Origin: a bacterium 1XD42-54
Lineage (GTDB): Bacteria > Bacillota > Clostridia > Lachnospirales > Lachnospiraceae
DNA length: 64,000 nucleotides
Reading direction: 5' to 3'
NCBI GenBank assembly: GCA_003612585.1
Contig: RAZH01000006.1
Location: 124,001-188,000 of the forward strand
Below the pieces are notes generated by a model. It ran no database searches, was not told the origin of the DNA, and saw nothing but the letters and a program-made list of their open reading frames with translations. Every line of letters begins with the position of its first letter. Positions within the stretch are counted from its first letter, which is position 1. Below, in pieces: positions 41,512 through 58,404 of this stretch. Both the position numbers and the translations under genes were made by a program.

Positions 41512-42146
41512 ACAACATAAACAGGGACAAATAATCCCGCCAGATACACAACCAGTAAAATGCTTTGCAGAAACAGATTTACGGATAAACTGGAAGCAGC
41601 GGCAGTGCAACAAATGTAAAACGGCGGTATGGTCAGCAGGGTGACGAGCGACCAGATACGCAATGCCCTTACGATGTGCGGCCAGTTGCTGTTGTTAAAA
41701 TACAGACCAGGCACATTCATACGAAAAAATCCGTCCGAGATGCCACTGATTTTATTTTCGTCATAATAAGCAGGCAGTCTGTTTTTCATGAAAAACCAGA
41801 AATAGACTCCAAAGATAAAACTAAGCAGCTCAAATGTCAGAAATGTGGTTGCAAATGGATAGAGTATTGATTTTCTGCCGGATAAAAACCATATTCCTAA
41901 CAATAGCTCCAATAAGGAAAGCAGCGTGCAGCTGCCAAAAAGAACCGCGTGTTTTTTACGCTGTTCTTTTCTTTTTTCCGGTGTTTCTTCTGAGAAGGTG
42001 AGGGCTTTTTTGACAAGGACTTCTACCTGCGAAAGCTCCATGTCAGAAGCGGTATCAAGACGCCGTGCTTCAAGCAGTTCCGTGACGGAAACGCCGAGGA
42101 TGTCAGCGAGCGGCATCAGAAGAGAGATATCCGGCATACTCAAGCC
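41493..42146 (-). pseudogene. XRE-family regulator with membrane domain, 3' part (split by the mobile element)
   Basis: This frame encodes the last 217 residues of a regulator. It begins GLSMPDISLLMPLADILGVS, the second half of a standard XRE helix-turn-helix domain that normally reads VSKWE(R/T)G-LSMPDISLL. A linker and four hydrophobic segments follow. The 5' part of the gene, ending in VSKWERG, lies on the far side of the element at 58274-58404. An in-frame stop lies just inside the element, so no full protein can be made. The pair gives a precise empty-site prediction. Confidence 0.9.
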
Positions 42147-42147
42147 C

Positions 42148-42167
42148 GTTTCCCTTAATTAAAGATA
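42148..42167 (+). repeat. Left terminal inverted repeat of the element
   Basis: Reading inward, the 20 bases start GTTTCCCTTAATTAAAG. They match the right end in 18 of 20 positions. Confidence 0.88.
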
Positions 42168-42188
42168 TTGTTGGGTAAAAAAGAAAGG

Positions 42189-43810
42189 TCAATCGATTTT
42201 GCCGATAAAGCGGTAGTAGATTTCTACTTCCTGCTCACGGCTTCCATCCTCGCCCTTGACAGCTTCGTGGACGGTTATTTTTTCAATTAGAGTGTTCAGA
42301 AGTTCGGCGGTCAGCTCCACAGGGTTGACATACTGTTTCATCAGGGCAATCCACTTTTCAGCATCCGCTGCGGTCTGTACGGCGGCTTCCATCGTTTCGT
42401 GAAGCTGTCTTATTTTTGTTTCAAGCTCCTTTTGCTCGTTCTGGTACTTCTCGGACAGCATATTGAAGTTATACTCGGTTATGCGTCCAGCAGACCAGTC
42501 CTCATACATTTTAGCAAACAGCCCGTCAACCTCGGCTTTACGCTTCTCTGCCTTTTTCAGCTCCGCAGCCTGCTTTTTCTTCGCAGAGTTTCTTTCCCTG
42601 TCGCTGGCATTGAGCAGGCGTTTCAGCAGCTTGTCCTCGTCTTTCTGTGCCAGCATAGACCAGTATTGCAGTCTTCAAGTACATAGGCATACAGTACATC
42701 ATAGCGGATATAGTGCATGGAACACTGGCGTAATCCCTGTCCGTTTTTGCTGCAATGGTAGTACCCGTATGGGTTTTTGTTCTGCTTGTTTTCCCCATAG
42801 GCTAAAGACCATCCGCAGTCTGCACATTTTATCAATCCTGCGAAAATCTGTGTCGTACCGTTTCTGCGTTTCCTGCGTCTGCTTGCAATCAGCTCCTGAA
42901 CTTTTTGGAACACTTCTTCGGAAATGATGGCTTCGTGGGTATTTTCCACACGATACCATTCTTCCTGCGGCTTCCGCACCTTTTTCTTGTTCTTGAATGA
43001 AATGTTGCTCTGCTTGTTGTGAACACTGTGACCGATGTAGGTTTCCTCTTTCAAAATGCTCTTGACCTGTGCAATCGTCCACGCATAGGCTTTTTCTGCG
43101 GGCGCACCGGCGTAGATATTAGCGAAAGTCCCGTATCTTTCATAGTTCAGCCAGCCGGGGGTAGGTACTTTTTCCTCCACCAGAATCCGTGTAATGCTGG
43201 CGGCACCACGCCCGTGTACGGCAAGGTCAAAAATCTTCTCTACAATCCAGCGTGTTTCCGGGTCGATCAGAAGATGACCTTTTTTGTCCGGGTCTTTTAC
43301 ATAGCCCAGCGGTGCATAGGCTCCATAGTGTGCGCCATTGGCAAATCTTGTGTGCATGGCAGCCTTGACCTTTTTGCTGGTCTGTCGGGCGTGCATTTCA
43401 TTTAGGATGTTTAAGAACGGGGCAAGCTCGCTTTCTCCGTTGATGGTGTCCACATTGTCATTGATGGCAATGTAGCGTACTCCCTTGCTGGGGAAATAGA
43501 TTTCCGTGTACTGACCGGTCAGGATATAGTTTCTTCCCAGACGGGATAAGTCCTTTGTGACAACGCAGTTGATTTTTCCGTCCTCGATGTCATCAATCAT
43601 CCTTTGGAAACTTGGACGCTCGAAATTTGTCCCGCTCCATCCGTCGTCAATGTACTCGTCTACAACGGTCAGCCCATGCTCTGCGGCATACTGCCTAAGC
43701 ATCATGCGCTGGGTCTGGATACTGCCGCTTTCCCCCTGTAATTCATCGTCACGGCTCAATCTCAAATATAGTGCAGTGTTATAAATCGTTGTATTGTATG
43801 GTTGTTTCAC
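42189..43810 (-). pseudogene. Large serine recombinase (TndX/TnpX type), frameshifted
   Basis: The first frame (43810 to about 42675) carries the resolvase domain with catalytic S19 in YLRLSRDD, the Recombinase domain and a zinc ribbon (CADCGWS ... YYHCSKNG). Near 42672-42679 the frame is lost. The adjacent frame continues with RLQYWSMLAQKDEDKLL and a coiled-coil C-terminus to 42189. Joined, the product would be about 540 residues, the TndX size. One missing base in GTACTTGAAGACTGC explains it. The GTG start follows GAAGGAGG. Position at the left end, 3' end outward, fits the family. Confidence 0.88.
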
Positions 43811-43838
43811 GGTTAAAAATCCTCCTTCTAAAAGAAAC

Positions 43839-43888
43839 AACCCACGCTTATACAATACTCGCTGGTACAAGTATATCATAAGCGTGGG
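43839..43888. repeat. Palindromic arms over the recombinase promoter
   Basis: CCCACGCTTA at 43841-43850 pairs with TAAGCGTGGG at 43879-43888. A -10-like TATACT for the recombinase lies between the arms on the reverse strand. The 16 bases 43839-43854 recur in inverted form at the right end (58220-58235). Confidence 0.7.
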
Positions 43889-43917
43889 CTGATTGACAGT
43901 CGTTATTCCGTATTTTT

Positions 43918-44103
43918 TCAGGAAGCGGCGGCAGCGTGCTGGATCACATCTTCCAGCAGGCTGTCAAGCGGCTTCCCATCCTGTGCGAAATGCTCCGATA
44001 CCTTGATACGGACTTTCCCCATGACAAAATACTGGGTGCCGTCTTTTTCGGTAAGCAGGGTGCCGCTGTTTTTGTTATTGCTCTCGTTTTTGTTTTTTGC
44101 CAT
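43918..44103 (-). CDS. TnpW-like small transposon protein
   Basis: A 61-residue protein with a polar Asn/Lys-rich start and a C-terminal half (GTQYFVMGKVRIKVSEHFAQ) resembling the TnpW family encoded next to TnpX-type recombinases. GGAGG lies upstream of the ATG. It is probably co-transcribed with the recombinase and its role is unknown. The 100-base gap to the recombinase carries the palindromic promoter region. Confidence 0.65.
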   Translation of the reverse strand: MAKNKNESNNKNSGTLLTEKDGTQYFVMGKVRIKVSEHFAQDGKPLDSLLEDVIQHAAAAS

Positions 44104-44179
44104 AGGCAGTTACCTCCATAAATGAAATATGCCCGACAAGGGAATGTCAGGCAGGTGTACAGCCGCAGACTGTCTCCAT

Positions 44180-44454
44180 GTCAACCAAACCGTGTCAACC
44201 GTCAGAAAAGACTTTGAAAACAATCCATTGGCGCTCTATGATTACTTTTTACTTTTTCTTTGATTTCTTGGTTGACATGGTTGACAAAGGAGAGAAATGC
44301 CCAAAATATCAGGCTTTTCCCCGTCAACCGGCTGTCAACCGAAGCGTCAACCAAACTGTTAACCGGTGGCTTTTCAGAATGGCAGTTCCATTTGCCGGGC
44401 TTCTTCTTCCGTGATTTCTCGAAAACCGTCCCCCTCCGGCGGAGCTTGGTTGAC
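44180..44454. repeat. Cluster of GTCAACC iterons, candidate replication origin
   Basis: Eight exact copies of GTCAACC or its complement begin at 44180, 44194, 44270, 44279, 44323, 44334, 44346 and 44448. A GTTAACC variant is at 44358. Four copies from 44323 are spaced 11-12 bases apart, close to one helical turn. The region from 44104 to 44373 has no convincing gene; the last copy lies in the end of the helicase gene. Confidence 0.7.
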
Positions 44455-45771
44455 ACGCTCCCAGCCTTTTTGAGAACCGTATTTCTTATACCGCTTCGGA
44501 CTTTTGTAGGCTACCCAGCCCTGTATGATACCGCCCGCAATGCCGGTATTCATAATCTCGCAGATTGCCCGTGTCTCCCAGTCTGCCGGGGAATTTAAGT
44601 TCCCCAATGCTTCCTCATAAAGCTGCTTGGAGCATACCCTGTCGCCGGTGTAGTCCTCCAAATAGGCGTAGATCATGCCAGCCTGTGTGTCTTCCTGCAT
44701 GAAGTCCTGCTGGTGTTCTTTCAGATACCGCTCCATTGCTGGGCTTAGTTTCAGCTTTACATCGCCTTTCCGGTAAACCTCCATGACCTCCGCCCACATC
44801 TGCCCGATGTAGGCTCTGGAAGCGGCTTCATCTTCCAGAAAGTGAACCTCCGCCGCTTCCGCCTGCACCTGCACCGGCATGAAACGCCGGTTCCCGGTTC
44901 GGTCAAGAGGCAGGAAGTCCAGCGTGTTGGAAGTTCCGGCAAACACGCACTGCCGCTTATGGTCTTTTGGGTGGACTTCATAAGGGGCTTTGTAGGTTTC
45001 CTTCTGGCGGCTCAAAAAGGACTTAATATCCTCAATGCTCTTTGCGTTCGCCGTGGCAATCATTTCCGACATTTCAATAATCCAATGCCCTTGCAGCTTG
45101 CGGTACACATTTTCATCGTCCAGCTTCTTCAAATCGTCTGAAAACCATTCGCCCCTGCCTGCCAGCAGCCGGAAAAAGGTAGATTTCCCGGCTCCCTGAC
45201 CACCAACCAGACAGAGCATGACCTCAAACTTGCTCCCCGGTCTGAATACCCGCCGGATGGCTCCCATCAGGAACAGTTTCAAGGCTTCATAGGTGTATTC
45301 GTCCGTATCGGCTCCCAGAAAGTGATGCAGGGCGTAACGGATGCGCTCTGTGCCGTCCCATTGCAGGCTGTTCAGGTAATCCCTGACCGGATGGTAGCGG
45401 TTTTCATTGGCAACAATCTTGATGGCGCTCTGCACCTTTTTCTCGCTGGTAAGCCCGTAGTTTTCTTCCAGATACAAAAGCAGGTAGTTCATGTCCATGT
45501 CGGTCAGCGTGGTACTGGTGCGCTCCCAGCCCAGCGGCTTCACAATGTCAATCTGCTCCGTCAAAAGGTTCAGACGCAGCGCCCCACGAAACAGAGGGTC
45601 ACGCTGGAACACCGTCAGGCAGTTTCGGATGCTGTTCTTCACGCCGCCTTTCTGCGTCCCCTCTAATGTCTCCCGGATTTCTGTCGGTGTCTGCGCCGGT
45701 TCCATTGTGTCCATCGTCCTTTTGACAGCTTCCTGCGTTTCCGGCGGCAAGCTCTGAAATTCGCTGTTCAA
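44374..45771 (-). CDS. VapE-like (virulence-associated E) primase-helicase ATPase
   Basis: A 465-residue protein of the VirE/VapE family. The P-loop GGQGAGKST is at 190-198, followed by WIIEMSEM (Walker B-like) and a segment TSNTLDFLPLDRTGNRRF near 275-295. Related proteins act as replicative helicases on phages and mobile elements. The start is a TTG with GGAGG 9 bases upstream, which lies 173 bases inside the 3' end of the primase gene in another frame. It likely works with that primase at the iteron region downstream. Confidence 0.85.
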   Translation of the reverse strand: MNSEFQSLPPETQEAVKRTMDTMEPAQTPTEIRETLEGTQKGGVKNSIRNCLTVFQRDPLFRGALRLNLLTEQIDIVKPLGWERTSTTLTDMDMNYLLLYLEENYGLTSEKKVQSAIKIVANENRYHPVRDYLNSLQWDGTERIRYALHHFLGADTDEYTYEALKLFLMGAIRRVFRPGSKFEVMLCLVGGQGAGKSTFFRLLAGRGEWFSDDLKKLDDENVYRKLQGHWIIEMSEMIATANAKSIEDIKSFLSRQKETYKAPYEVHPKDHKRQCVFAGTSNTLDFLPLDRTGNRRFMPVQVQAEAAEVHFLEDEAASRAYIGQMWAEVMEVYRKGDVKLKLSPAMERYLKEHQQDFMQEDTQAGMIYAYLEDYTGDRVCSKQLYEEALGNLNSPADWETRAICEIMNTGIAGGIIQGWVAYKSPKRYKKYGSQKGWERVNQAPPEGDGFREITEEEARQMELPF

Positions 45772-46333
45772 GCCGCAGCACCTCCTTTCCCTGTGCGGCG
45801 ATCAATGCCGCTTTTTCTTCTATTTCTCCGTATAACAAAATATCCAAAAGGTATTCTGTGTAGCTTATCCTCTGCAACGCTTCCACAAAAAGAGGATGCG
45901 CATCCTGCGGCTGTGGGGCGTATGCTGTTTTCCAATGCTCCAGCAGGCGCAGATAATCGCATAGCACCCGGAAACAATACCGTTCCGTTTCCTGAAATCT
46001 CTGCTCCGCTGATTTTTGTCGGGGCTGTGACCTGTTGTGACGCTTCCTATCTGGCGGCGCATTGCCGGATTTCTCATAGGAAACGCCGAAGTCCTCCGCA
46101 AGCCTGACCGCAGCTTCCCGTTTCCCCAATCCATGCAGCAAAGCGGCAAAGTCGATCACATCCCCGGAAGCCCCGCAGCCGAAGCAGTAAAAGCGGCTGT
46201 CCACTTTCATGCTGGGCGTGCGGTCATTGTGGAATGGACAGCAGACCATGCCGTTTCTCCCCACCCGGATTCCATAGAATGAAGCAGCCTGCCGGGTGGT
46301 AACAGACTGTTTCACCGCTTCAAATACATTCAA
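45599..46333 (-). CDS. CHC2 zinc-finger primase-like protein
   Basis: A 244-residue protein. The CHC2 zinc-binding domain is at 25-95, with C32-P-F-H35 and C50-F-G-C53 as ligands, and FAALLHGLGKREAAVRLAEDFG in two parts after it. The rest is helical with a basic Lys/Arg-rich segment and no TOPRIM domain, so it may only recognise template DNA and rely on the VapE-like partner. The long overlap with the helicase gene suggests coupled translation. Confidence 0.83.
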   Translation of the reverse strand: MNVFEAVKQSVTTRQAASFYGIRVGRNGMVCCPFHNDRTPSMKVDSRFYCFGCGASGDVIDFAALLHGLGKREAAVRLAEDFGVSYEKSGNAPPDRKRHNRSQPRQKSAEQRFQETERYCFRVLCDYLRLLEHWKTAYAPQPQDAHPLFVEALQRISYTEYLLDILLYGEIEEKAALIAAQGKEVLRLEQRISELAAGNAGSCQKDDGHNGTGADTDRNPGDIRGDAERRREEQHPKLPDGVPA

Positions 46334-46380: not shown

Positions 46381-47852
46381 TCATAGCTCCATCTCATGTT
46401 TCTTTCTTTGTACTTCCTGTGGCTGCTCCCACCGGCGCAGTGCGGTATCTACGGCGTTCTGCACCTGCCGCAGCCGTATGACTTCCTCCCGGAGCGGCTT
46501 GTGCTGCGGAGACAGTTCGGCATACTCTGTTTTTAACTGTGCATATTCCTGTTTCCATGCTTTCAGGGCAATGGGTTTTCCGTCCAGTTTTTCTTTCAGA
46601 ATACGGCGGGCGGCATAAAACAGCCGTAACTCCGCATCGTGGGATGTTTCAAATTTCTCCCTCTGTTTCTTAAACTTGATATTGTTCAATTCCGTATGGA
46701 CAGGTTTTAGCCGCTGGTAATTCTCGCCCTCCCGTATCAATTCCTTCAATTCCTTTATCCGGGCAGATTTCTTTTTCATGGAGCCGCTTAATGCTTAAAT
46801 TCTTCACTGACAGAGGAAAGACGCTCCTGCAAATCCTCTAATGTGAGCAGCTTGTTTTCCGTCAGATAATTGACGGCTTCGGCAAACTGCTTTAAGTTTC
46901 CGGTTCTGGCTTTATTGCTCCATGCCCCTGCGTTGCGCTGGTTGTAATAAGCGATCAGCAGGTCGGCAAGGTTCGGTGTCTGCGGTTTGGAAAGTTCTTC
47001 TTTTACCTCTGCCATCCAGACAAACAGGGCTTTGATCTTCTTCCTCACATCCTGCATGAGCCGGTTGGTAGCTTTAATCCAGCGGTTCAGTTCCCCTTTT
47101 TCGGTACGGATGCCCTTTGCTTCCATCTGCCGGACATTAGCGCCCTCGTGGACAGTAGGTATCAGGTCAAGCCCCTGCCGCACATAGGAACGGTGGTCGA
47201 TACGCACATCCTGCCCTTTTTCCTCAAATTTTGTATTAACGGCAGCCGCCCACTGCTCCCGCCAGTGTTCCAGTGTTTCCGGCTCGTGCCAGTCTGTTGT
47301 GTGGACAGCATTAAACATATAATCGCCGTTTTTATCCCGGATTCGGTTTCCATCTTCATCAAGAAGATATTCCCGCCGCTGTTTTTGTCCCCATGTGCCA
47401 TCCGGGTTCAAAGGGCGCATGGTTGTCATCACATGGAAATGTGGGTTAGGGATGCCGCCGTCCTCTTTCTCCGGGCTGTGAAAAGCAAGATCGGCAATCA
47501 TGCCTTTTGCCACAAACTGCTCCTGCACGAACTTCCTCGCCAGCTCCATGTTTTCTTCCAGCGTCAATTCATTCTGCATGGCAATATCAAAGGAATAGGC
47601 AAGCTGGGCTTTTGGATGTTTCTCGCAGTTCTCCACAGCATTCCAGAGGGTCGCCCGGTCAAGATATATTTCCGGCGCATGGGGCGGCAGCATGATTTCC
47701 GAAGCGATCACGCCGCCCTTTTTGGTGTAGTCGCTGACTTCTCCATAGTAGCTGCTGTAAAGACGCTCCCCGGCTCGGTAGGCTGCGCTGGCAATGGCGC
47801 TCTGACCGGCGCTGCGCTTTATCTGTGCGATTGAAAAATGATAAAGTGCTAT
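46381..47852 (-). pseudogene. MobA/MobL-family relaxase, frameshifted, apparent ATA start
   Basis: The N-terminus ALYHFSIAQIKRSAGQSAIA and the metal-binding H138-F-H140 (NPHFHVMTT) identify a MobQ-class relaxase that nicks oriT and pilots the strand. The frame is open to an in-frame TGA; the first codon before ALYHF is ATA at 47852, three bases after the upstream gene. At 46794 one base is lost: the frame ends EEFKH-stop, whereas the adjacent frame continues LSGSMKKKSARIKEL to 46381 as a helical C-terminus of 132 further residues. Restoring one G gives an uninterrupted protein of about 490 residues. Confidence 0.85.
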
Positions 47853-47854
47853 CC

Positions 47855-48172
47855 TTAGTCACCGCCTTTCTCCTGCCCGGAAATACGGGCGTGGTTTTCT
47901 GCGGCAGACCGGATGAAATGCTCCGCCTGCGGCAGATTCAAAATGCTTTCCATGAGGGAATAAAATTCCGTTTCGGTCAGCTCCTTTGTCTGTGGCGCAA
48001 TGCTCTCAATAGCTGCCCCACGGGTAATCAGCCGGTGCGTCCTCTGTTTCCGGGAACCGCTTTCCAGATACGCCTGCCGGTTTTTCAAACGCTGCATTTT
48101 CCGTTTTTCCCGTTCCAGCAGGACAGTGGTTTTTTCATATTCCTGCTTTAACTGTTCCAAAGATTTTTCCAT
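47855..48172 (-). CDS. DUF3847-like mobilization accessory protein
   Basis: A 105-residue, highly charged protein with an N-terminal coiled coil (SLEQLKQEYEKTTVLLEREK) and a basic middle (RKQRTHRL). It resembles DUF3847 proteins encoded directly before MobA/MobL relaxases on such elements and probably helps relaxosome formation. The ATG at 48172 has AAAGGATGTGAG upstream; a longer frame to 48211 is less likely. Two bases separate its stop from the relaxase ATA codon. Confidence 0.7.
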   Translation of the reverse strand: MEKSLEQLKQEYEKTTVLLEREKRKMQRLKNRQAYLESGSRKQRTHRLITRGAAIESIAPQTKELTETEFYSLMESILNLPQAEHFIRSAAENHARISGQEKGGD

Positions 48173-48415
48173 GTTCTCACATCCTTTACTGATAAGATAA
48201 AGAAAGACCATCCGCAGACAGTCTGTGTGTCAGTGCTTCTATAAAACCCGATGAAAAGGGAAAACCGCAGAGCGGATTTCTCTTTGCGGCGGGTACACAG
48301 GGGATAGCCGCTTTAGCGGCGCAAGGGGGTGTAGCCACCTTGTCGGAGCGAAGCGAACGCAGACCTCGGATTGCTGATTTTATCAGCGGCAGGGGTAAGC
48401 TCCGCAGGACGCACG

Positions 48416-48808: not shown

Positions 48809-49033
48809 TTATTTGTCGCTTACCGGTACGGTTTCGGAGCCTTTTGCCATCCATTCAAAGAAGGCAATTTTGCTGACCTTGATAAGCCTGCCCCTGCGGA
48901 ACGCCGGAAAGCCGGGTGTGTGTACCAGCTCATAGGCGCTCGCTCTTGAAATTCCCATAATCCGCTGAATGTCCGCCACATCCAAAACCAGCGGTAAATC
49001 CTCGTAGCTGTTCAATCTCTTTTTATCGTTCAT
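48809..49033 (-). CDS. Excisionase-like helix-turn-helix protein
   Basis: A 74-residue protein with a MerR-like/HTH_17 winged helix (DVADIQRIMGISRASAYELV) followed by GFPAFRRGRLIKVSKIAFFEWM, the standard excisionase-family pattern. The ATG at 49033 follows GGGAGGAACAG; a longer frame to 49090 lacks support. It may steer the recombinase toward excision or regulate transfer genes. Confidence 0.85.
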   Translation of the reverse strand: MNDKKRLNSYEDLPLVLDVADIQRIMGISRASAYELVHTPGFPAFRRGRLIKVSKIAFFEWMAKGSETVPVSDK

Positions 49034-49248
49034 TCTGTTCCTCCCATAAATCAAATAGGTTAAAATGCTTCCTGTTGCCGTTCTCCCCAAAAGCCGTTTT
49101 CCTGCCCCATTCCTGCGGTGTTTCCCTGCATTGGTGCGCCGGATGCGTCACTTCTCCTGCCGGTCATATCCCTTTTGGACGGTCATTCACTTGTCAAGGT
49201 ACTGTATGGCACGAAATTACCAACTACAATCATCGTAGCGGACTATCC

Positions 49249-49334: not shown

Positions 49335-50375
49335 ATGGAGAATCAGTTTATACGGCATGAGCCATGTTTTGAGAGGATTTTGTTTGTCCTGACGCTGGAC
49401 AGGAAGAAAATGAAAGAGCGGATTTTGATTGGGGAAGAACAGCAGATCCGCTTCCAGCTGAACGGGAGCCAAAACGCAGAGGTGCTTTGTGATATGACAC
49501 GCCCGCTGGGAACTTTTTTGATAAACTTTGAGCGTGACACGGACAGAGACTGGAACTTATACGGGCTTTCTCCGCTGCGGCAAGCCCTCCACTCCAACCG
49601 ATGGAAACAGCCGGAGCTGGAGCAGGCGGCAAGCGAATTTCTCTGGGGAAAATATCTTAGCAATGACCCTCTGAAAATGTATGTGGCGTTCCGTATCTGG
49701 AACAGCTATCTGCTTGCCAGAGAACCCCGTGACCGTAACGCTGCCTGTGACCGCTTCATGGATAAAATGAGCAGCCTGACCGGGGTATTCCATAGCGAAG
49801 CCATGACCTTTGACAGGGAGACAGGAAAACCGAAACATTTTCAAGCTGGCAGCCTTTATTTCAAAGGCGCACCATCAGAAGATACCCGGCTTGACCTCTG
49901 GTTCCCGGACAACCGTCGCACAGAAGAATGTGTGTCTGCCTATGCGTCCCTCTACCCGTTGATTACCTATTATCTGAGCAGACTGAATGACTGGGGGCTT
50001 TGCTTCCGGCGGTGCAAGGTTTGTGGAAAATATTTTCTGGCAAAGAGCCAGCGGTATGAGCTGTGCAGCGATAAGTGCCGAAAAGCACAGGCGCTTCAAA
50101 ACAAGCGGGAATTTGACGAGAGGGCAAGAGAAAATACCTATGACCTGCTTTATAAAAATGAATGCCAGAACTGGCGCAACAAAATAAACCGGGTAAAAAA
50201 TACCGCAGGCTTTCCGGCTGACCGTCTGGAAAAAATACAGGCTGCCTTTTCCGACTTTAAGAAAGAAGCATTGCAGAGAAAAAAGGCTGTAAAAACAGGA
50301 ACAGCCAGCCCGAAAGAATTTACGGACTGGCTGTATCAGCAGAGTAATGTAATTGTTGAGCTGACCGAGATATGA
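49335..50375 (+). CDS. Zinc-finger protein of unknown function (DUF6076-like)
   Basis: A 346-residue protein and the only gene of the element on the forward strand. The C-terminal part has a CGNR/treble-clef-like cysteine motif (CKVCGKYFLAKSQRYELCSD, next cysteine soon after) near 227-250, followed by a basic helix. The N-terminal 200 residues have no motif that I recognise. It resembles proteins labelled DUF6076 on clostridial mobile elements. A regulator or nucleic-acid-binding protein is plausible. It has its own promoter divergent from the excisionase-like gene. Confidence 0.6.
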   Translation: MENQFIRHEPCFERILFVLTLDRKKMKERILIGEEQQIRFQLNGSQNAEVLCDMTRPLGTFLINFERDTDRDWNLYGLSPLRQALHSNRWKQPELEQAASEFLWGKYLSNDPLKMYVAFRIWNSYLLAREPRDRNAACDRFMDKMSSLTGVFHSEAMTFDRETGKPKHFQAGSLYFKGAPSEDTRLDLWFPDNRRTEECVSAYASLYPLITYYLSRLNDWGLCFRRCKVCGKYFLAKSQRYELCSDKCRKAQALQNKREFDERARENTYDLLYKNECQNWRNKINRVKNTAGFPADRLEKIQAAFSDFKKEALQRKKAVKTGTASPKEFTDWLYQQSNVIVELTEI

Positions 50376-50467: not shown

Positions 50468-50546
50468 AAATGTCCGAGGTACCTTTGATTTCGACAGAAA
50501 AACAGGCTGAATTGTTACAACGCTCGGACATTTCAAAAATTTTTTT
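50468..50546. repeat. Intergenic repeat, diverged copy at the end of the cargo operon
   Basis: It begins AAATGTCCGAG and ends GTTACAACGCTCGGACATTTC, split here between 50468 and 50535, followed by AAAAATTTTTT. The outer motifs match the copies at 53681 and 56185, but the middle differs. Confidence 0.7.
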
Positions 50547-50600: not shown

Positions 50601-52967
50601 TCATTCCATCGCCCGCATTTGTTCAATCAGAGATTGTTTTTTCTGTCTGCGGACTGTCCATACAGACAAAATCAGCTCCATTCCGAACAATACCAGAATG
50701 AACAGACCCATTTCCAAAACCGGGAATTTGTAAGGCACTACTTTTCCGGCAAAAGCTCCTACACTAAATTTGCTGCAAGCAAAGATGGAAGCCGGAAGCC
50801 CAACGATCAGCGTCGCCAATGTTGCAAAGAATGCATAGCACAGCCCCTCGCAGATATTCATTTTACATAGCTGCTTTTGGGTCAGTCCGATGGAACGCAA
50901 AACACTGTTTTCCTGTTTTCTGGACATTTGATTAGAGAGGGTCGTGTTAATTAGGTTGATAACGCCAAAGAGGAATACCAGCCATGAAAGTACCTCCATA
51001 CTGCCAAATACAAAAGAATTTATATTTTTTTCATACTCAATTACAGTGTTAATATCATCTAATGCAATATCCGTATGAGCGGATATAATATTTTTTAATT
51101 CATCCCTCACATGATCCGCTTTTTGGGGATCACTTACAATGCTCCATGAATAATCGAAAGAGGTGATTTCCGGGTGCAGTTCATGGAACAATGCTTCCGG
51201 TGCAAATTCCAATACACCGTCAAAGTGATGTGTTCCATGTCCATTATCCAGATTATTGTTAAACACCCCGGATATAGTAACCGGAATGGTTGATTTCCCG
51301 GAGATAAGTTCAGCTGTTTCTCCGACACCTATATGTTCACGGTTACTTGTTGCCGAATCAATTAGGATGCTGTGTGTATCCGTCGGCATAGTGCCCTCTA
51401 TCAATGAAGCTTCAACCTTAGAATAATTTTGATCAGTCAGTATATCACACATACCACCATATTCAATTCCGTTGACGTTATAATTTATATGAAGGCTTTG
51501 CCTTTTTGCAATCACATCGGTTACACCGTCAATAGACAAAATTTCCTGTTTGAGTTCCTCATTCAGTGGATTTCCTGCTGCCATGACTTCTTGTTCTGAC
51601 AACTTTGAATCCAGATAAACCTTATAGTCACCATCCGGGAACTCTTGTCTTGCAAGCGCCTCTGGGGAGCGCAGCAAAACAATGGAGGATACCACAAGCA
51701 GGATAATTCCACCCAAACTCAATGAGGCTACAATAGCAACGGTCTTTTTGCGGTCACGCTTAAAATTCGCAATTCCCATTGAAACAGGATTGAGCTTGAT
51801 ATTCTTTTTCCGGCTGCGGATGTCCTTTTGCGCCGGGGTAAAACGGACGGCTTCAATGGGGGAAATCCCTGCCGCTATTTTCACCGGCTTACGGATGGAA
51901 ACAGATACCATGATCCAACTGCTTATGAGTGTCAAAATAATCGTTGCCACATAGGAAACAGCATTAAATCCCTTGGGAAACAAAAGAAAACCGCCGCATA
52001 CACCCAGTACTGTACCAATCAAAATTCCGATACTGCCGAGTTTGCGCCCCTCCCGCTTTACAATCCGCTTGATTTGCTTTGGCGTCGCGCCAATCGTCCG
52101 AAACTGCCCGTAGCTCTGGATTTTGTCATTGATGGAGATACGGAAGATACTCTGGATCACAATATAGCCGCCGATCAGAACAATAGCAATCACACCAACA
52201 ATCGGTAAAAAATCAAAGGATTTAGAAGCATAAGCAAAATATTTGCTGTTCATTTTGGGCATAGAAAGCTGATATTCCTCCGCAACCTCCCTGCAATAAG
52301 AGGTCATCAGTTCTTCGTCCAACTGAACGCTGTTTTTGAAATGGGCATAGGCGCGATACCCAGCGGGGTTAAACCCATCCCATTCTTTCAGGGCAGCTTT
52401 GGAAAGAATGATGGCACAGGTATTCGCTTCTTTTTCATTTACGCTGTCCAGAATGCCGGTAACGACATAATCGCCATGAAAACTCTCTGTATCTAAGGTC
52501 ACAGTGTCCCCAATTTTGGCATTGTTTCCATAGGTGGAAAGAAAGTATTCGCTTACGACAACTTCATTTGCCTTTTGGGGCAGATTCCCCTCCAATAGCT
52601 TCATTTGGTCGCGCCCAATCTCCATCATTTCTGCGTCATTATATACATAAGAGGCATGATAGCCCTGTTCTGAAAGTTCCTCACCCAGCATATAGTAGCC
52701 GCCTACGCGCTCAAACTCCGGCACTCCTTTCAGGGTTTCAATGTCGTTTTCCTCTACACCCAGCCAAACCGCCTCATAAGTATCGACAACCTGATTGCGC
52801 TGCATTTGTGTCAGGGAAGTAGACACAATTCCCGTAAAGCAGATCAGAAACGCCGCCAGCGCAACGGCGATCACCACCATCAGATTCCGGCGCTTCTCGC
52901 TTTGTAAACTTTTCTTTGCCAGCTTCTTTGTAATGGCGTTGGTATCATTCTCAAAAGGCCATGTCAT
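50601..52967 (-). CDS. FtsX-type ABC permease 2 of the cargo exporter
   Basis: A 788-residue membrane protein with an N-terminal helix (about 29-50), an extracytoplasmic MacB-PCD-like domain, two FtsX four-helix regions (three helices near 260-365 and at the C-terminus 655-775) and a second N-terminal-like helix near 410-430. It shares the start MTWPFENDTNAITKKLAK with the other permease gene, so the two are paralogues. AAGGAGG precedes the ATG, 14 bases after the ATPase gene. Likely function: export of, or defence against, peptide antibiotics. Confidence 0.85.
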   Translation of the reverse strand: MTWPFENDTNAITKKLAKKSLQSEKRRNLMVVIAVALAAFLICFTGIVSTSLTQMQRNQVVDTYEAVWLGVEENDIETLKGVPEFERVGGYYMLGEELSEQGYHASYVYNDAEMMEIGRDQMKLLEGNLPQKANEVVVSEYFLSTYGNNAKIGDTVTLDTESFHGDYVVTGILDSVNEKEANTCAIILSKAALKEWDGFNPAGYRAYAHFKNSVQLDEELMTSYCREVAEEYQLSMPKMNSKYFAYASKSFDFLPIVGVIAIVLIGGYIVIQSIFRISINDKIQSYGQFRTIGATPKQIKRIVKREGRKLGSIGILIGTVLGVCGGFLLFPKGFNAVSYVATIILTLISSWIMVSVSIRKPVKIAAGISPIEAVRFTPAQKDIRSRKKNIKLNPVSMGIANFKRDRKKTVAIVASLSLGGIILLVVSSIVLLRSPEALARQEFPDGDYKVYLDSKLSEQEVMAAGNPLNEELKQEILSIDGVTDVIAKRQSLHINYNVNGIEYGGMCDILTDQNYSKVEASLIEGTMPTDTHSILIDSATSNREHIGVGETAELISGKSTIPVTISGVFNNNLDNGHGTHHFDGVLEFAPEALFHELHPEITSFDYSWSIVSDPQKADHVRDELKNIISAHTDIALDDINTVIEYEKNINSFVFGSMEVLSWLVFLFGVINLINTTLSNQMSRKQENSVLRSIGLTQKQLCKMNICEGLCYAFFATLATLIVGLPASIFACSKFSVGAFAGKVVPYKFPVLEMGLFILVLFGMELILSVWTVRRQKKQSLIEQMRAME

Positions 52968-52981: not shown

Positions 52982-53647
52982 TTATTCCACAATCTTTCCG
53001 TCCTCAATGCGGACAATCCGATCTGCAAGACGGGCAATATCGTTGTTGTGGGTAATCATCACTACGGTTTGCCGGAACTCCGCGCTGGTACGCTTGATAA
53101 GCCCCAGCACCTCGGCGCTGGTCTTGCTGTCAAGGTTGCCGGTCGGCTCGTCGGCCAGCACAATAGCTGGTTTGGTAATCAAGGCGCGGGCAATCGCCAC
53201 ACGCTGCTGCTGGCCGCCGGAAAGATTGTTCGGCATATTTTTTAGTTTATCTTCCAGCCCCAGCAGGTGAACGATCTCGTCCAAAAACTTCTGATCCACC
53301 GTGTCCCCGTCCAGCTCCACCGGCAGGACGATATTCTCATACACATTCAGGATGGGAACAAGGTTATAGTTCTGGAAGATAAAACCGATGTTGCGGCGGC
53401 GGAAGATGGTGAGCTGTTCGTCGTTCTTCTTTGCCAGTTCTTCGCCCCGGACAATCACGGTTCCGCTGGTGGGAGTGTCCAGCCCGCCCATCATGTGAAG
53501 CAGGGTAGACTTGCCGCTGCCGGAGGTTCCCACAACGGCCACAAATTCGCCCTCGTCTACGGAGAAGTTCACGCCGTCAAGGGCGCGGGTAATGTTCGGC
53601 TCTGCACCGTAATGCTTTTTTAGGTCAATCGTCTGTAAAATGCTCAT
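52982..53647 (-). CDS. MacB/LolD-type ABC ATPase of the cargo exporter
   Basis: A 221-residue ATPase. It has Walker A GTSGSGKST near 37-45, the Q-loop FIFQNYNLVPILNVYEN, signature LSGGQQQRVAIARAL near 140-154, Walker B ADEPTGNLD and an H-loop MITHNND. The type pairs with FtsX-domain permeases and detects or removes antimicrobial peptides. The ATG at 53647 follows AAAGGAG; the frame open further upstream only runs through the intergenic repeat. Composition is GC-richer than the first permease gene. Confidence 0.93.
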   Translation of the reverse strand: MSILQTIDLKKHYGAEPNITRALDGVNFSVDEGEFVAVVGTSGSGKSTLLHMMGGLDTPTSGTVIVRGEELAKKNDEQLTIFRRRNIGFIFQNYNLVPILNVYENIVLPVELDGDTVDQKFLDEIVHLLGLEDKLKNMPNNLSGGQQQRVAIARALITKPAIVLADEPTGNLDSKTSAEVLGLIKRTSAEFRQTVVMITHNNDIARLADRIVRIEDGKIVE

Positions 53648-53680
53648 ATTCAAAACTCCTTTCAAGGCTTTCTGCCTGTT

Positions 53681-53788
53681 GATAAGGGTATTGTAAAACC
53701 CAAATGTCCGCGAAATGTTACAGCGGCCCAAAAAATTCATTGAAAATCGGGGTGAAATGTTACAACGCTCGGACATTTCAAAAATTTC
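53681..53788. repeat. About 105-bp intergenic repeat, copy 2
   Basis: It starts GATAAGGGTATTGTAAAACC, contains AAATGTCCG and CGGACATTT as outer inverted arms and two ATGTTACA motifs, and is nearly identical to 56185-56290. Confidence 0.85.
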
Positions 53789-56163
53789 TATGATAATTCC
53801 CGTATTTGATCTACCAGAGATTGTTTTTTTATCTGCCGGATTGCCAAATACGAGAAAAGCATTTGGACAGCAAGCATCAGTATAAAATAACTGAACATTT
53901 CAACTGTCGGAAAATGATAGCTTACTTTTCCAAAAATACTCATTGCACTAAAGACGGTGCAGAGAAGATATCCGATAAGAGTTCCGCATGATATGGAAAG
54001 AAGCAGCACCCCTAATGTATAGAACAAGCCCTCTATCAATAACATTTTTGAAAGCTGCTTACTGCTCAAACCAACCGCTTGCAAAACACCCAGTTCCCGC
54101 TTCCGTGTCAAGATGTTTGTTATCAGTGTGTTTAACAGGTTGATAATGCCAAAAACCCCGATAAACATAACAAAAATGTAAACTGGCATACGATAATTCA
54201 ATAGTTTTTCGTTGTATGCCTCTGCCCAATCATTCAAGGTACTGACATAGAGGCTGGAAGTCGGTGGAATTATCTTTTGGATTTCATCTTTTGCAGCTGC
54301 CCATTTACTGTCATCTGTATCTACAATAAATTGATAATTGAGGTTTTCAACAGGAACGATCTTTGACAGCATTTCTAAAGGAATAAATAGCGTATCATAT
54401 CCGCCATACGGGATATCAGCGTCCACAATTCCCATTACTTTTACTTCCAATGTTTGTCCGCCAACTTCAATCAGAAGTTCGTCCCCAATCGCTGCATCCC
54501 ACCCAAAAGTTTCTTTCCACTGTGGGCCATTTTCAATAATAATGCCATTATTATTGAGTAGTTCCTGCAAATCTGCTGTACCATCAATCAAATATTCTTC
54601 AAGCAATTTTTGAGAGCTTGGCATATATGCGTCTGAAACAACCGGTTCAATATCTCCCGTTGGCATACGGACATTCAAAACGGTGCCCTGGTATTCTTTT
54701 ATTTCTTCCACACCATCTATGTCCAAAATGGATTCTCTAAAATCTTCTGTGAGCAGATTTGATTTTTGGAGTTCTGAATATTGTTCGCTGTTATGTGCCT
54801 GCGGCCCGTAATCGCCTAATTCAAGGCGAATTTCTCCGTAAGGAAAACTCCTGCGCGCCATCGCTAAAGGATCAATGGAATTAAAATATGCAGAGCTTGC
54901 CATCAGCAAAATTCCACATACCCCTAACGACAGGATCGTTAAAGCGGTTTTCTTTCTGTTCCTTGCAAAATTAAGGAAAGCTAAATTTTTCGCGGATAGA
55001 GAACGATGCAACACTTTTGTACTGTTGGACATTACATCATTATTGCCCGCCATATAACGGACTGCTTCAATAGGCGTAACATGAGCAGCAGTTTTGGCTG
55101 GCTTAATTACAGCAATCATAACGCATAGATACACAAACAGAGCTGTGACAGCGGCAATTACAAATACTATTAAAGTGTTCCAGCCTTGTGGGACAAGGAC
55201 ATACCCCGCTATTGCACCGGCTAATATTCCAATCGGAATACCAATTCCGGAAAGATGGAATCCCTCTCTAAAAACGATTTTTTTCATCTGTTTTCCAGTT
55301 GCCCCTATTGTCCGCAGTTTCCCATATTCTTTTGTTTTTCTGGCTATGGACACATAGAACAGACTGTAAATAACAAGGGTACAAGACAAAGCGATAATAA
55401 TACTGATAAATGCTATTACAGCGATATATTGACTGCTTCTCTGTTCAATGAGAGAAAAATAATATGTTGAAAACTGCATTTGCTCCGGCTGTATTTCCAA
55501 TTCTCTGCACAATGTTGATAATTCAGCTTGTATAGCGGCCTTAGACCAACCATCAGATTCATTCAAACGGATATAAGCGGAGTATGCCGGTTCGCTGATC
55601 TTGTTTTCAATATAGGACTGCGGCACGAATACGGAATAATTTGAATTTTCGACAGGCAAAATACCACATAAGGTATAATCTTTTTCTCCATCTCCCAGAT
55701 TTAACGATATAGTATCGCCTATGGATTTGGACAATCCAGCTCTATCAAGAAACGCCTTTGTGATAGCAATTTCATTTGTAGATTTGGGCAATTCTCCCTC
55801 TAAATCAGGATATTTTGCTAATTTCATCAACGTTTCGTCCATTGAACGAACGGTTAATTTGTAGTCCCCATAAGATACTAAACCCAACAAATGACTTACA
55901 CCCACTTGAACCCTATCGTCATTTACTAATTTCGTAATGGTATCATTATCGACTTCATTGATGATTGCTTGATAACGCCCAGCCGCATCATTTAATGATT
56001 TTCGCTGCGAAGCAAAAAAATACAAGGTCGTTGTCATTATCAAACAGGTAGCTAAGGCAATCGTAATGATAATGAGGATGTTTCTGCTTTTATCTGCTTT
56101 TAAGTTTCGTTCTGCCAACTTTTTTGTAATGGCGCTTGTATCGTTTTCAAAAGGCCATGTCAT
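53788..56163 (-). CDS. FtsX-type ABC permease 1 of the cargo exporter
   Basis: A 791-residue permease with the same plan as permease 2: a first helix near 30-50, a large extracytoplasmic domain, an FtsX region near 255-375, a middle helix near 415-435 and a C-terminal FtsX region near 665-785. Two permeases of this size served by one ATPase recall the Vex-type exporters that sit beside VncRS. The ATG at 56163 follows GGAGGTGATACAACT. The gene is clearly richer in A/T than the kinase and ATPase genes beside it, which suggests a mosaic origin. Confidence 0.85.
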   Translation of the reverse strand: MTWPFENDTSAITKKLAERNLKADKSRNILIIITIALATCLIMTTTLYFFASQRKSLNDAAGRYQAIINEVDNDTITKLVNDDRVQVGVSHLLGLVSYGDYKLTVRSMDETLMKLAKYPDLEGELPKSTNEIAITKAFLDRAGLSKSIGDTISLNLGDGEKDYTLCGILPVENSNYSVFVPQSYIENKISEPAYSAYIRLNESDGWSKAAIQAELSTLCRELEIQPEQMQFSTYYFSLIEQRSSQYIAVIAFISIIIALSCTLVIYSLFYVSIARKTKEYGKLRTIGATGKQMKKIVFREGFHLSGIGIPIGILAGAIAGYVLVPQGWNTLIVFVIAAVTALFVYLCVMIAVIKPAKTAAHVTPIEAVRYMAGNNDVMSNSTKVLHRSLSAKNLAFLNFARNRKKTALTILSLGVCGILLMASSAYFNSIDPLAMARRSFPYGEIRLELGDYGPQAHNSEQYSELQKSNLLTEDFRESILDIDGVEEIKEYQGTVLNVRMPTGDIEPVVSDAYMPSSQKLLEEYLIDGTADLQELLNNNGIIIENGPQWKETFGWDAAIGDELLIEVGGQTLEVKVMGIVDADIPYGGYDTLFIPLEMLSKIVPVENLNYQFIVDTDDSKWAAAKDEIQKIIPPTSSLYVSTLNDWAEAYNEKLLNYRMPVYIFVMFIGVFGIINLLNTLITNILTRKRELGVLQAVGLSSKQLSKMLLIEGLFYTLGVLLLSISCGTLIGYLLCTVFSAMSIFGKVSYHFPTVEMFSYFILMLAVQMLFSYLAIRQIKKQSLVDQIRELS

Positions 56164-56184
56164 AGTTGTATCACCTCCATATTT

Positions 56185-56290
56185 GATAAGGCTATTGTAA
56201 AACCCAAATGTCCGCGAAATGTTACAGCAGCCAAAAAATTTCATTGAAAATCGGGGTGAAATGTTACAAAGCTCGGACATTTCAAAAAAA
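56185..56290. repeat. About 105-bp intergenic repeat, copy 1
   Basis: It covers the gap between kinase and permease 1. Outer arms AAATGTCCG/CGGACATTT and two ATGTTACA motifs are present. The recurring motif probably marks regulator binding sites. Confidence 0.85.
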
Positions 56291-56328
56291 TTTGCGGCGG
56301 GCAGCCGGAAATGGCCGTCCGCCGCGTT

Positions 56329-57360
56329 CTATTTTGTCGGCAGCATAATGGAAAATTCCGAACCCTTTCCCAGCTCCGAAACCACTTTGATATAGCCGCC
56401 CTGCCGCGTTACGATCTCACGGGCCAGATACAGGCCAATGCCCACGCCCTGTTGTTCGTGTACTTCTTCCTCACGATAGAAGCGCCGGAAGATGGCGGCC
56501 TGATTGCTTTCGGAAATGCCCTTGCCGGTGTCGGCCACTTTGATCTCCACATACATTTCCCACAGCACCACTGACACAGCGATTTTCCCGCCTGCCGGGG
56601 TGTACTTCACCGCATTGTCCAACAGGTTAAAAAGGGCTTCGGATGTCCATTTGCTGTCATGGGAAACGGCCAAATCCTCCGGGCAGTCCACAGACACGGC
56701 GATTTCTTTTTTCTCCGCTGCATATACAATCCCACTCATAGCCTGCGCTACGGTATCAAAAAGGTGGCCAGGTTTCTTATCCAACTGGATCACGCCCGTT
56801 TCCAGCCGGGAGGTTTTCACAAGGGCCTGAAAGAGAAAGTCCAGCTTATCCGTCTGGCTGCGGATTCCCAAGATAAAGTCAGTGCGCTCCGCCTCGGTCA
56901 TGGGCCTTTCCAGCAGGGTGTCCGCCGCCATTTTCAGATTGCTTACCGGCGTTTTCACCTGATGGGAAATATCCGATACAAGGGTCTGTAACTCCTGCCG
57001 TTCCTCGTCCACAAGACGGCGGTTCTCCTGCATGATCTGATAAAGTCTTGCCAGCCGGTGTCCGATTCTGGCAAGCTGGGTTTCGCTGTCCTCCGGGCGC
57101 TGGGGCGCTTCATTTCCGGCGATCATGTGGTCTAAGGTCTGGCATAGGTCAGCGGTAAACTGCGACAGCCGCTTTCCAAACACCTGCGTCAGTACAAAAA
57201 TCCCCACAAGGGCGCACAGCAGCAGCGCCCCGCCAGTCAGCAGCGCCGCCGTTTGTTTTGTCACAAAAAACAGGGCTATGGTAATCCCGGACATAGAGAG
57301 GACAAGCCCTATTGCCACCCGGCCAAACAGCCGCTTTACAGATAGGTTTTGAAACTTCAT
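56329..57360 (-). CDS. Sensor histidine kinase of the cargo two-component system
   Basis: A 343-residue kinase with two helices (about 13-33 and 37-59) and almost no external loop between them, as in intramembrane-sensing kinases that take their signal from an ABC transporter. H133 in DISHQVKTPVSNL is the phosphorylation site. The ATPase domain has NLLDNAVKYTPAGG, DTGKGI and GVGIGLYLAREI. Its ATG overlaps the regulator stop (ATGA). Confidence 0.9.
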   Translation of the reverse strand: MKFQNLSVKRLFGRVAIGLVLSMSGITIALFFVTKQTAALLTGGALLLCALVGIFVLTQVFGKRLSQFTADLCQTLDHMIAGNEAPQRPEDSETQLARIGHRLARLYQIMQENRRLVDEERQELQTLVSDISHQVKTPVSNLKMAADTLLERPMTEAERTDFILGIRSQTDKLDFLFQALVKTSRLETGVIQLDKKPGHLFDTVAQAMSGIVYAAEKKEIAVSVDCPEDLAVSHDSKWTSEALFNLLDNAVKYTPAGGKIAVSVVLWEMYVEIKVADTGKGISESNQAAIFRRFYREEEVHEQQGVGIGLYLAREIVTRQGGYIKVVSELGKGSEFSIMLPTK

Positions 57361-58049
57361 TTCGCCTCGCCTCCCGTCCACTGATAGCCCATGCCGTAAA
57401 CGGTCTTGATGTAGGGCGTGCCGCCGTCGGATTCGATCTTGCTGCGAATCCGGCTGATGGAGGTTGTCAGGGTGTGTTCATCCACAAACTTCTCGTCTAT
57501 ATCCCACATCTTTTCCAGAAGCTGCCCACGGGTCAGCACTTGCCGGGGATTTTTACGGAACAGGTTCAGCATTTTGTACTCCATCGGGGATAAGGTCAGG
57601 GGCTTGCCGTTTAGGGAAGCCGCCTGCTCCGAGAAGTCCAGAAACAGCCGCCCGTCGTCGTAAATGTCCCTGGCCGGTTTGTGGTGTTCCAGCATGGCGA
57701 ACATGGCTTTGATTTTCCGCTGCAAGGCCCCGATCACAAAGGGCTTTGTGATGTAGTCCACCGCGCCCACCTCATAGCCCCGTATCTGGTCGCTTTCCTG
57801 ATCGTTGGCGGTCAGGAAGATTACAATGGTGTCCGGGTGCTGGGGCTTTATCAGCTTGCACAGTTCAAAACCATTCCCATCCGGCAGGTTGATGTCCAGC
57901 AGCACTAAATCAAATTCCCGCTGGCGCAGGACATCAGCTGCGGTCCTGGCATTCAGGGCAGAAGTCACGCCGTACCCGTCTGTGGTCAGGTTATAGGCCA
58001 ACATCTTATTCAAAAAACTGTCGTCCTCGACAATTAAAATCTGCTTCAT
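57357..58049 (-). CDS. OmpR-family response regulator of the cargo system
   Basis: A 230-residue regulator with receiver residues E8-D9-D10, D52 in LVLLDINLPDG and K101 in TKPFVIG, and a winged-helix C-terminus (HTLTTSISRIRSKIES). AAAAGGAAG precedes the ATG at 58049; an apparent 117-residue extension to 58400 crosses the element end and is not real. It presumably binds the ATGTTACA/TGTCCG motifs that lie upstream of itself and between the transporter genes. Confidence 0.9.
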   Translation of the reverse strand: MKQILIVEDDSFLNKMLAYNLTTDGYGVTSALNARTAADVLRQREFDLVLLDINLPDGNGFELCKLIKPQHPDTIVIFLTANDQESDQIRGYEVGAVDYITKPFVIGALQRKIKAMFAMLEHHKPARDIYDDGRLFLDFSEQAASLNGKPLTLSPMEYKMLNLFRKNPRQVLTRGQLLEKMWDIDEKFVDEHTLTTSISRIRSKIESDGGTPYIKTVYGMGYQWTGGEAK

Positions 58050-58089
58050 ATCCTCACTTCCTTTTCTTTTTGCAAATAGTATAACAGGC

Positions 58090-58111
58090 AAATGTCCGAG
58101 AATTGTTACAA
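58090..58111. promoter_or_regulatory. Single copy of the repeat motif upstream of the response regulator
   Basis: AAATGTCCGAGAATTGTTAC (then AA) matches the outer motif of the intergenic repeats and lies 41 bases before the regulator start. This fits autoregulation. Confidence 0.6.
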
Positions 58112-58169
58112 GGACAAATATATTTATCATTTTACAGCTTTTTTCTGTGTACTGCAATTTTATAAAAGA

Positions 58170-58198
58170 AAGGACAGCAGTATCAAATTGCTGTCCTT
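58170..58198 (-). terminator. Hairpin insulating the right end of the element
   Basis: AAGGACAGCA pairs with TGCTGTCCTT (10 bp, 9-base loop). On the reverse strand it is followed by TCTTTTATAAAA, so it would stop transcripts entering from the XRE promoter. Confidence 0.6.
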
Positions 58199-58219
58199 GC
58201 GGTTTATTATAGCTGGTAG

Positions 58220-58235
58220 TGTATAAGCGTGGGTT
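58220..58235. repeat. Right-end copy of the recombinase-promoter arm
   Basis: TGTATAAGCGTGGGTT is the exact inverted match of 43839-43854. It lies 38 bases inside the right end. Confidence 0.65.
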
Positions 58236-58252
58236 CATCATATTTGGTGTGG

Positions 58253-58272
58253 TATCTTTAACTATGGGAAAC
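58253..58272 (-). repeat. Right terminal inverted repeat of the element
   Basis: Reading inward on the reverse strand it starts GTTTCCCATAGTTAAAG and matches the left end in 18 of 20 positions. Confidence 0.88.
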
Positions 58273-58273
58273 T

Positions 58274-58404
58274 CCACGCTCCCATTTGCTGACCGCTTTG
58301 TCAGACACGAACAGTTTTTCGGCAAGTTTTTTTTGGGTATAGCCTTTTGCTTTTCGCTCCTGGCATAAAAATTCTGCAAATGCAGTTTTGTTAAGCTCAA
58401 ACAT
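58274..58404 (-). pseudogene. XRE-family regulator, 5' part (split by the mobile element)
   Basis: The first 43 or so residues of the regulator: MFELNKTAFAEFLCQERKAK, then GYTQKKLAEKLFVSDKAVSK and WERG, the first half of an XRE helix-turn-helix. The frame then enters the element and stops at 58258 after VSHS. The missing remainder starts GLSMPD at 42146. Its promoter is still intact, so a truncated 48-residue DNA-binding fragment could be made. Confidence 0.9.

Follow-up and report, generated by a model that had tools for sequence, protein, structure and literature searches.

A mobilizable element of a Lachnospiraceae bacterium and its relatives lie mostly at one glycine codon of many different XRE regulator genes

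A 64,000-nucleotide stretch of the genome of the Lachnospiraceae bacterium 1XD42-54 (contig RAZH01000006.1, positions 124,001 to 188,000; hereafter the window) contains, at positions 42145-58275, an integrative mobilizable element with a TnpX/TndX-type (DUF4368) large serine recombinase, which interrupts the gene of an XRE regulator. Judged by the sequences that adjoin their ends, the relatives of this element mostly occupy the same glycine codon, in a wide range of XRE genes. The use of one glycine codon in dozens of different XRE genes is a larger result than the exact ends of the single copy. Taken as a whole, the observations are very probably best explained by a DUF4368-type element for which a conserved codon block of HTH_3 genes would serve as bacterial attachment site (attB).

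Both junctions of the window copy could be read directly. Read on the minus strand, the interrupted XRE gene has the layout KWER / GG / element / GG / LSMPD. The 5' half, with its start codon at 58404-58402, runs into the element as ...GCAAATGGGAGCGT-GG-AGTTTCCCATAGTTAAAGATA, the element runs into the 3' half as TATCTTTAATTAAGGGAAACG-GG-CTTGAGTATGCCGG, and the product after joining the halves reads ...KTAFAEFLCQERKAKGYTQKKLAEKLFVSDKAVSKWERGLSMPDISLL.... A sequence-only reading of the window had placed the limits of the element at 42141-58280, which is right to within about 5 bp, and had claimed that the XRE gene is split at a glycine codon and that joining across a shared GG restores the frame. 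It had also suggested looking for an uninterrupted XRE gene in related genomes, and such a gene was found in genome G045 of the same genus. In G045 an open XRE frame of 261 aa, with 95% identity across the 3' half, reads GAGCGTGGCTTAAGTATGCCGGA, and its halves are joined across a single GG. Matches to the 3' half at E ≤ 0.001 were present in four of the 47 genus genomes searched, including the window's own; the match in G003 is 52% identical and lies within a 264-aa open frame. A site model that had been built without the window gave the empty site of G045 a score of 34.6 bits, versus 1.2 bits for the next position on the same strand of the 3.6-kb locus, and this match is not due to chance. 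The origin of the arrangement by a chance meeting of two unrelated XRE pieces is ruled out by the same empty site.

On one side the sequences diverge at the base preceding GG, on the other at the base following it, and GG alone is common to both junctions and the empty site. Therefore, the overlap is exactly 2 bp, the GG core of the earlier reading is upheld, and the element together with one core has a length of about 16.13 kb. Directly inside the cores lie terminal inverted repeats, TATCTTTAA(T/C)TA(A/T)GGGAAAC, which are identical at 18 of 20 positions, as had been noticed before and as the junction reads confirm. Their absence from other copies of the element would have spoken against that reading; they are present in the relatives. 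A circular form, as deduced from the ends, would join them as TATCTTTAATTAAGGGAAACG-GG-AGTTTCCCATAGTTAAAGATA, a near-palindrome around GG. The proposed serine-recombinase type of attachment site and the restored XRE frame are likewise upheld.

Relatives were collected by scanning genome contigs with the 418-aa recombinase part, and the best 80 loci of 284 were kept (the host of L062 is listed as Dechloromonas and is likely a contaminant, with a record coverage of 1.4). An accepted end had the repeat with at most two mismatches, a GG core and a flank of 40 nt or more; L058 and L140 are exceptions to the core, and the core of L058 was treated as GG in the counts. At the recombinase side the sequence past the repeat was translated in the frame in which GG opens a codon, and the opposite ends were obtained by a pattern search in 26 genomes, with a match in 25, or were already inside the loci. 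The recombinase-side flanks nearly always read G-x-x-x-P-D/E and resemble the second half of HTH_3, and the opposite ends mostly read ...SKWE-x. Ninety of 92 distinct recombinase-side flanks (106 before de-duplication) fit G-x-x-x-P-[DENSTK], the misses being L041 and L065. At the opposite side 56 of 60 flanks (61 before de-duplication) end in W-[EQ]-x, and the misses are L090, L131 (a helix-turn-helix (HTH) domain with SYES), L139 and L144. L139 is paired with L042, whose recombinase-side flank reads as XRE, and this pair is unexplained. The insertion sites vary between hosts in their flanks, which rules out that the XRE halves are cargo of the element.

A fit to the pattern (90 of 92) is not the same as XRE identity, and scoring with an HTH model lowers the recombinase-side count to 82 of 92. 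Twenty-six HTH_3 sequences from the genome of the window (26 of 30 loci, taken from 48 matches) were used to build the model; at E ≤ 0.01 it recognized these 82 halves and, at the opposite side, 55 of 60, versus none of 92 shuffled recombinase-side sequences. Joined halves reached E ≤ 1e-3 in 49 of 52 cases, with L041, L065 and L090 as the misses. The gain from joining lies in the score, because 92 of 102 single halves pass the same threshold alone: the median was 68.6 bits after joining versus 40.5 and 15.8 bits for the halves. The two halves in Pusillibacter are annotated as helix-turn-helix regulator and XRE family regulator. Among six family copies from plasmid and phage collections four have an XRE flank (L193, L194, L195, L197) and two do not (L191, L192); in the seventh record fetched from these collections, a TndX record (L196), no such end was found. 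Twelve further loci yielded a recognisable repeat in seven, and five of these later ends have CC.GA in register (L231, L232 with the core GA, L239, L240 and L242).

The diversity of the targets is most evident when the recombinases hardly differ. In 23 of the best 80 loci the recombinase is 98-100% identical in the best segment, across different genera. Seventeen recombinases with identities of 97% or more (median 99.3%) were compared; the 18 XRE HTH domains that go with such recombinases range from 22 to 72% in pairwise identity, with a median of 37%, and the complete genome of GAM79 contains two copies of the element in two different XRE genes. Shared flanks link G054 and G190, two genomes from the same family, to the named loci L041 and L027, and on this basis the host family of the window is probably Lachnospiraceae. 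For a quick tree with midpoint root, 12 named loci were excluded beforehand, of which 11 were present in the set of 124, the split recombinase of the window among them, and 62 of the resulting 113 rows remained after removal of near-identical rows. The rows with XRE flanks fall among 56 rows with an SH-aLRT value of 99, and the XRE rule holds over recombinases of about 60-100% identity. Among the own-genome relatives at 33-56% identity (L008-L013) no repeat with an XRE flank was found; the end of L008, which is 56% identical, is doubtful, and its flank is not XRE.

The positions near the core that are most fixed are TGGGA at -9 to -5 and CC.GA at +11 to +15, with 1.6-1.9 bits each, and the attB block can be written TGGGA-N4-GG-N10-CCNGA. 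The degenerate motif TGGGARNNNGGN10CCNGAY has 173 matches in 60 family genomes, compared to 13 for the reversed control, and at least one match is present in 49 of the 60. In the window's own genome it has four matches, versus one for the control, and all four are in HTH_3 genes. When motif loci were scored, 26 of 33 were HTH, or 22 of 29 after exclusion of the four own-genome genes that had also been used in model building. WE.G is present in only five of the 26 own-genome HTH_3 sequences, versus W[EQ] in 56 of 60 target flanks (Fisher P 1e-11, a comparison of one genome with many). Thus, the genes used by the element form one class among XRE genes, with codons that give TGGGA and CCNGA. A scan with the site model yielded 17 hits above 21 bits, of which seven came from the HTH_3 loci L161-L190 and the others are junctions. 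The scanned set included these loci, which had been chosen as HTH_3 genes, and the claim of specificity therefore rests on the motif counts and the WE.G comparison instead.

From these observations a mechanism can be proposed. The recombinase would recombine attP, the joined ends with their near-palindrome around GG, with an attB that may be described in two ways: as the conserved codon block K-W-E-x-G-x-x-x-P-D of one HTH_3 gene class, and as the DNA that the enzyme would contact, with TGGGA at -9 to -5, the GG core and CC.GA at +11 to +15. GGGA occupies the same position, -8 to -5, in attB and in the attP arm, so that the enzyme may recognize one half-site in the same way in the two sites. 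Since a protein motif would carry the site, a single recombinase could land in most genomes of the family, in each case within a probably dispensable regulator. Integration severs the regulator inside its HTH domain, and excision at GG would be expected to restore it exactly. Because the recombinase of the window copy is frameshifted, its excision would need help in trans, and this copy is probably immobile by itself.

Several observations weigh against this explanation. Nine insertion sites are apparently outside XRE genes (L041/L101, L065, L085, L090, L122, L191, L192, L233 and L241), including plasmid copies of E. faecium (L191) and L. amylovorus (L192), and L041, L191, L192 and L241 retain little or nothing of the parts of the site that were checked; the great majority of the copies nevertheless follow the rule. 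Against the own-genome model L041, L065, L085, L090 and L122 are not HTH, and the scores of L021, L026, L037, L125 and L129 are weak. Only three of the seven later ends are HTH at E ≤ 0.01 (L232, L240, L242); L233 has CC only, and L241 has neither CC nor GA. Deviating cores are AG in L058 and GA in L140 and L232. At silent positions targeted and vacant KWE genes do not differ (TCN versus AGY serine codons, Fisher P 0.79), and protein conservation and DNA preference are thus inseparable from those data alone. In addition, the recombinase of the window copy is split, and the circular form has itself not been seen. The remnants at some of the off-target sites, namely CC in register in L085, L090, L122 and L233 and TGGGA in L065, nevertheless fit a site that would be read as DNA.

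The conserved codon block as attB has to be weighed against other explanations. It is unlikely that the conserved codons of a protein family are a universal attachment site in the sense that the clade has evolved to read the DNA of K-W-E-x-G...P-D and uses the whole regulator family as landing pads, while each insertion also rewires the host by silencing one XRE regulator or leaving a truncated HTH peptide, reversibly by exact excision. We also regard as quite unlikely a genetic switch that is kept by selection, in which conditional precise excision would restore the regulator as in regulatory lysogeny. Scarless restoration would be possible with a two-base core, and most targets are regulators; however, they are many XRE genes and no single conserved regulator, the window recombinase is frameshifted, and the excised form is unseen. 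Off-target copies exist, and the DUF4368 clade is described in the available passages of two papers as multi-targeting with partly relaxed specificity (PMC10083194, PMC13137831), which would agree with a relaxed recombinase that needs little beyond GG and hits XRE genes because they are abundant in the hosts. GG alone would predict insertions in any gene and any register. However, register and pattern are common to 90 of 92 flanks, and the HTH model recognizes 82 of 92 as HTH halves, which makes such relaxed targeting very improbable and rules out its extreme form, targeting by GG only. It is hardly credible that one orthologous XRE gene is the classical specific site and that the other cases descend from it, because near-identical recombinases have targets that are only 37% identical (median) in many genera and two copies reside in different XRE genes of one genome, although similar targets recur as VTELLE(G/A)R XRE genes in the window, L055, L128 and L197; insertion into one orthologous gene only is ruled out by the diversity of the targets.

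With the conserved codon block as the preferred explanation, the element can be compared to known systems. It has in common with Tn4451/Tn4453 (TnpX) and Tn5397 (TndX) a TnpX-type large serine recombinase and a 2-bp target, and a record annotated as TndX is 43% identical to the recombinase of the element over 394 aa. The core of Tn4451 and Tn5397 is GA. The element is not a member of Tn4451/Tn5397 proper, given its GG core and the 43% identity to TndX; the comparison with TnpX covers the 120-residue chain of 2mhc only. The sequence-only reading had presented the GG core as a departure from GA, but this is no novelty, since Tn6115, the A118 integrase and MTI_1737 have GG as well. In the parts of the sources that were available, Tn4451 is described to carry a mobA/mobL gene (PMC3158075) and to have a low target specificity (PMC5704250), in contrast to the XRE codon block that is the target of the window element. 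Tn6115 of C. difficile QCD-63Q42, with 13.6 kb in the table or 15 kb in the text of PMC3158075, is similar in its serine recombinase, its PF05272 VapE/VirE-domain protein, its ABC transporter, its two-component system and its GG direct repeat; however, it is a single element in a CD1573 homologue, and the passages of that paper contain no general target rule. The A118 integrase has a GG crossover dinucleotide, and its solved structures are distant relatives of the window recombinase, but it belongs to a phage with a single target gene, comK (passages of PMC3556126). MTI_1737 has GG cores between A/G-rich and C-rich sequence, as in the window family, according to the passages of PMC13137831, which does not imply membership in the same clade.

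Insertion into an HTH-XRE gene has also been described for an integrative mobilizable element of S. suis with ant(6)-Ia, as one of 13 integration specificities, whereas the codon and its generality are not described in the available passages (PMC7168690). The S. suis locus L077 carries aadE, is flanked by XRE sequence at both of its ends, which are 7.4 kb apart, and is probably of the same kind. For the multi-targeting DUF4368 recombinases, MTI_1737 among them, a single recombinase cluster has been described to use many target genes, as in the window family, with a relaxed or non-specific choice of target (passages of PMC10083194 and PMC13137831). The test of target-gene Pfam families in the available part of PMC10083194 omitted the DUF4368 multi-targeting clade, and the main text of that paper does not contain "XRE", "helix-turn-helix" or "HTH". 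No report of a family-wide codon-block attB was found by full-text searches of the literature; subscription papers and supplements were largely outside reach, and an unseen report is possible. GG cores were thus already known, and what appears to be new is the family-wide rule that conserved codons of an HTH class would act as attB.

This rule explains how a "multi-targeting" recombinase can combine promiscuity with exactness: selection on the protein maintains the codon block that is the site across a large gene family, and any single member of that family is probably dispensable. It predicts landing sites in new genomes, and the motif is useful for locating split XRE genes. The rule also fits the spread of near-identical recombinases over many gut-bacterial genera, some with an aminoglycoside-resistance gene (17 of the 80 loci). 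About 90 natural attB sites make the specificity of the recombinase testable at single bases.

The features of the window copy are listed in Table 1. The designation as an integrative mobilizable element with a TnpX/TndX-type recombinase is based on the gene content, with a relaxase and an own recombinase present, and on TnpX as the best solved relative. The recombinase gene is situated at one end of the element, facing out, beside the XRE 3' half, and is broken by a frameshift within 42189-43879, either genuine or a sequencing error; relatives have 591-aa open frames. No Pfam family matched the XRE 3' half in the Pfam scan, and no type IV secretion family was found among the 16 element proteins scanned (smaller open reading frames were outside the scan). 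The cargo has FtsX, ATPase, kinase and OmpR-type domains, and no Bce model is among the NCBIfam matches listed for its proteins. BceAB/BceRS-type peptide detoxification is what we take to be the name for this kind of cargo, as a candidate label only.

Table 1. Coordinates of the element, its ends and the interrupted XRE gene in the window.
Feature	Coordinates	Strand	Evidence
XRE 3' half (LSMPDISLL...; C-terminal part membrane-bound-looking)	41493..42144	-	95% identical open-frame orthologue in G045, 52% in G003
Core dinucleotide beside 3' half (CC on +, GG on -)	42145..42146	.	Junction reads and empty site
Terminal inverted repeat, recombinase end, TATCTTTAATTAAGGGAAACG on -	42147..42167	-	Matching repeat adjoining recombinase in relatives
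Recombinase C-terminal part, DUF4368, different frame	42189..42656	-	PF14287 E 6.4e-24
Large serine recombinase, 418-aa frame: Resolvase, Recombinase, zinc-ribbon	42623..43879	-	Pfam; nearest solved relative TnpX 2mhc (120-residue chain), E 1e-34
VapE-like-domain protein, probably replication	44374..45771	-	PF05272 E 2.6e-71
CHC2 zinc-finger (DnaG-type) protein	45599..46333	-	PF01807 E 1.8e-16
MobA/MobL relaxase	46788..47711	-	PF03389 E 5.3e-73; MobQ model E 1.6e-56, below that model's cut-off
DUF3847 protein; possible relaxase accessory, from its position	47855..48211	-	PF12958 E 9.4e-26
HTH_17 protein; possible excisionase	48809..49090	-	PF12728 E 1.9e-8
DUF6076 protein	49335..50375	+	PF19553 E 7.9e-6
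Cargo FtsX-type ABC permease 1	50601..52967	-	PF02687 E 1.4e-16
Cargo ABC transporter ATPase (listed N-terminus probably over-long)	52982..53776	-	PF00005 E 4.4e-36
Cargo FtsX-type ABC permease 2 (listed N-terminus probably over-long)	53788..56280	-	PF02687 E 5e-25
Cargo sensor histidine kinase	56329..57381	-	PF02518 E 3.8e-25
Cargo OmpR-type response regulator (within longer mechanical open reading frame 57357-58400)	57357..58049	-	PF00072 E 3.1e-27, PF00486 E 1.1e-21
Terminal inverted repeat, cargo end, TATCTTTAACTATGGGAAACT	58253..58273	+	Matching repeat at far ends of relatives
Core dinucleotide beside 5' half (CC on +, GG on -)	58274..58275	.	GG alone common to attL, attR and empty site
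5' half of interrupted XRE regulator gene (MFELNKTAF...VSKWER)	58276..58404	-	HTH_3 PF01381 E 1.1e-6; uninterrupted orthologue in G045

Some observations concern the relatives. L124 (1960-2300), which has a 55% identical recombinase and belongs to the 56-row clade, ends beside a sequence that resembles another serine recombinase gene, and is perhaps a sister with another target. Three serine recombinase matches follow each other in the window's own genome (L009, L012, L013; contig C6:8578-12423). In L055 and L057 the recombinase is at the opposite end of the element and adjoins the XRE 5' half; L197 groups with L057 in the tree, yet its recombinase-side flank reads as the 3' half. The aadE stretch is 99.8-100% identical in 17 of the 80 loci (L051, L060, L061, L065-L068, L072-L075, L077-L079, L081, L082 and L085) and is lacking in L069-L071 and others, and in eight of the joined aadE loci the ends are 7,431 bp apart, in different hosts.

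Two further observations were made in the cargo region. The window contains six matches (at most three mismatches; 0.03 expected) to AAATGTCCGNGAANTGTTACA, at 50513-50533, 53702-53722, 53758-53778, 56206-56226, 56262-56282 and 58090-58110, which are close to the starts of the ATPase, permease 2 and the response regulator, with one at 50.5 kb; they are perhaps a putative operator of the element's own two-component system. Both FtsX permeases begin in nearly the same way, with MTWPFENDT.AITKKLA, and the 106-nt segments 53679-53784 and 56183-56288 agree to 95%, a pattern that points to a duplication within the cargo.

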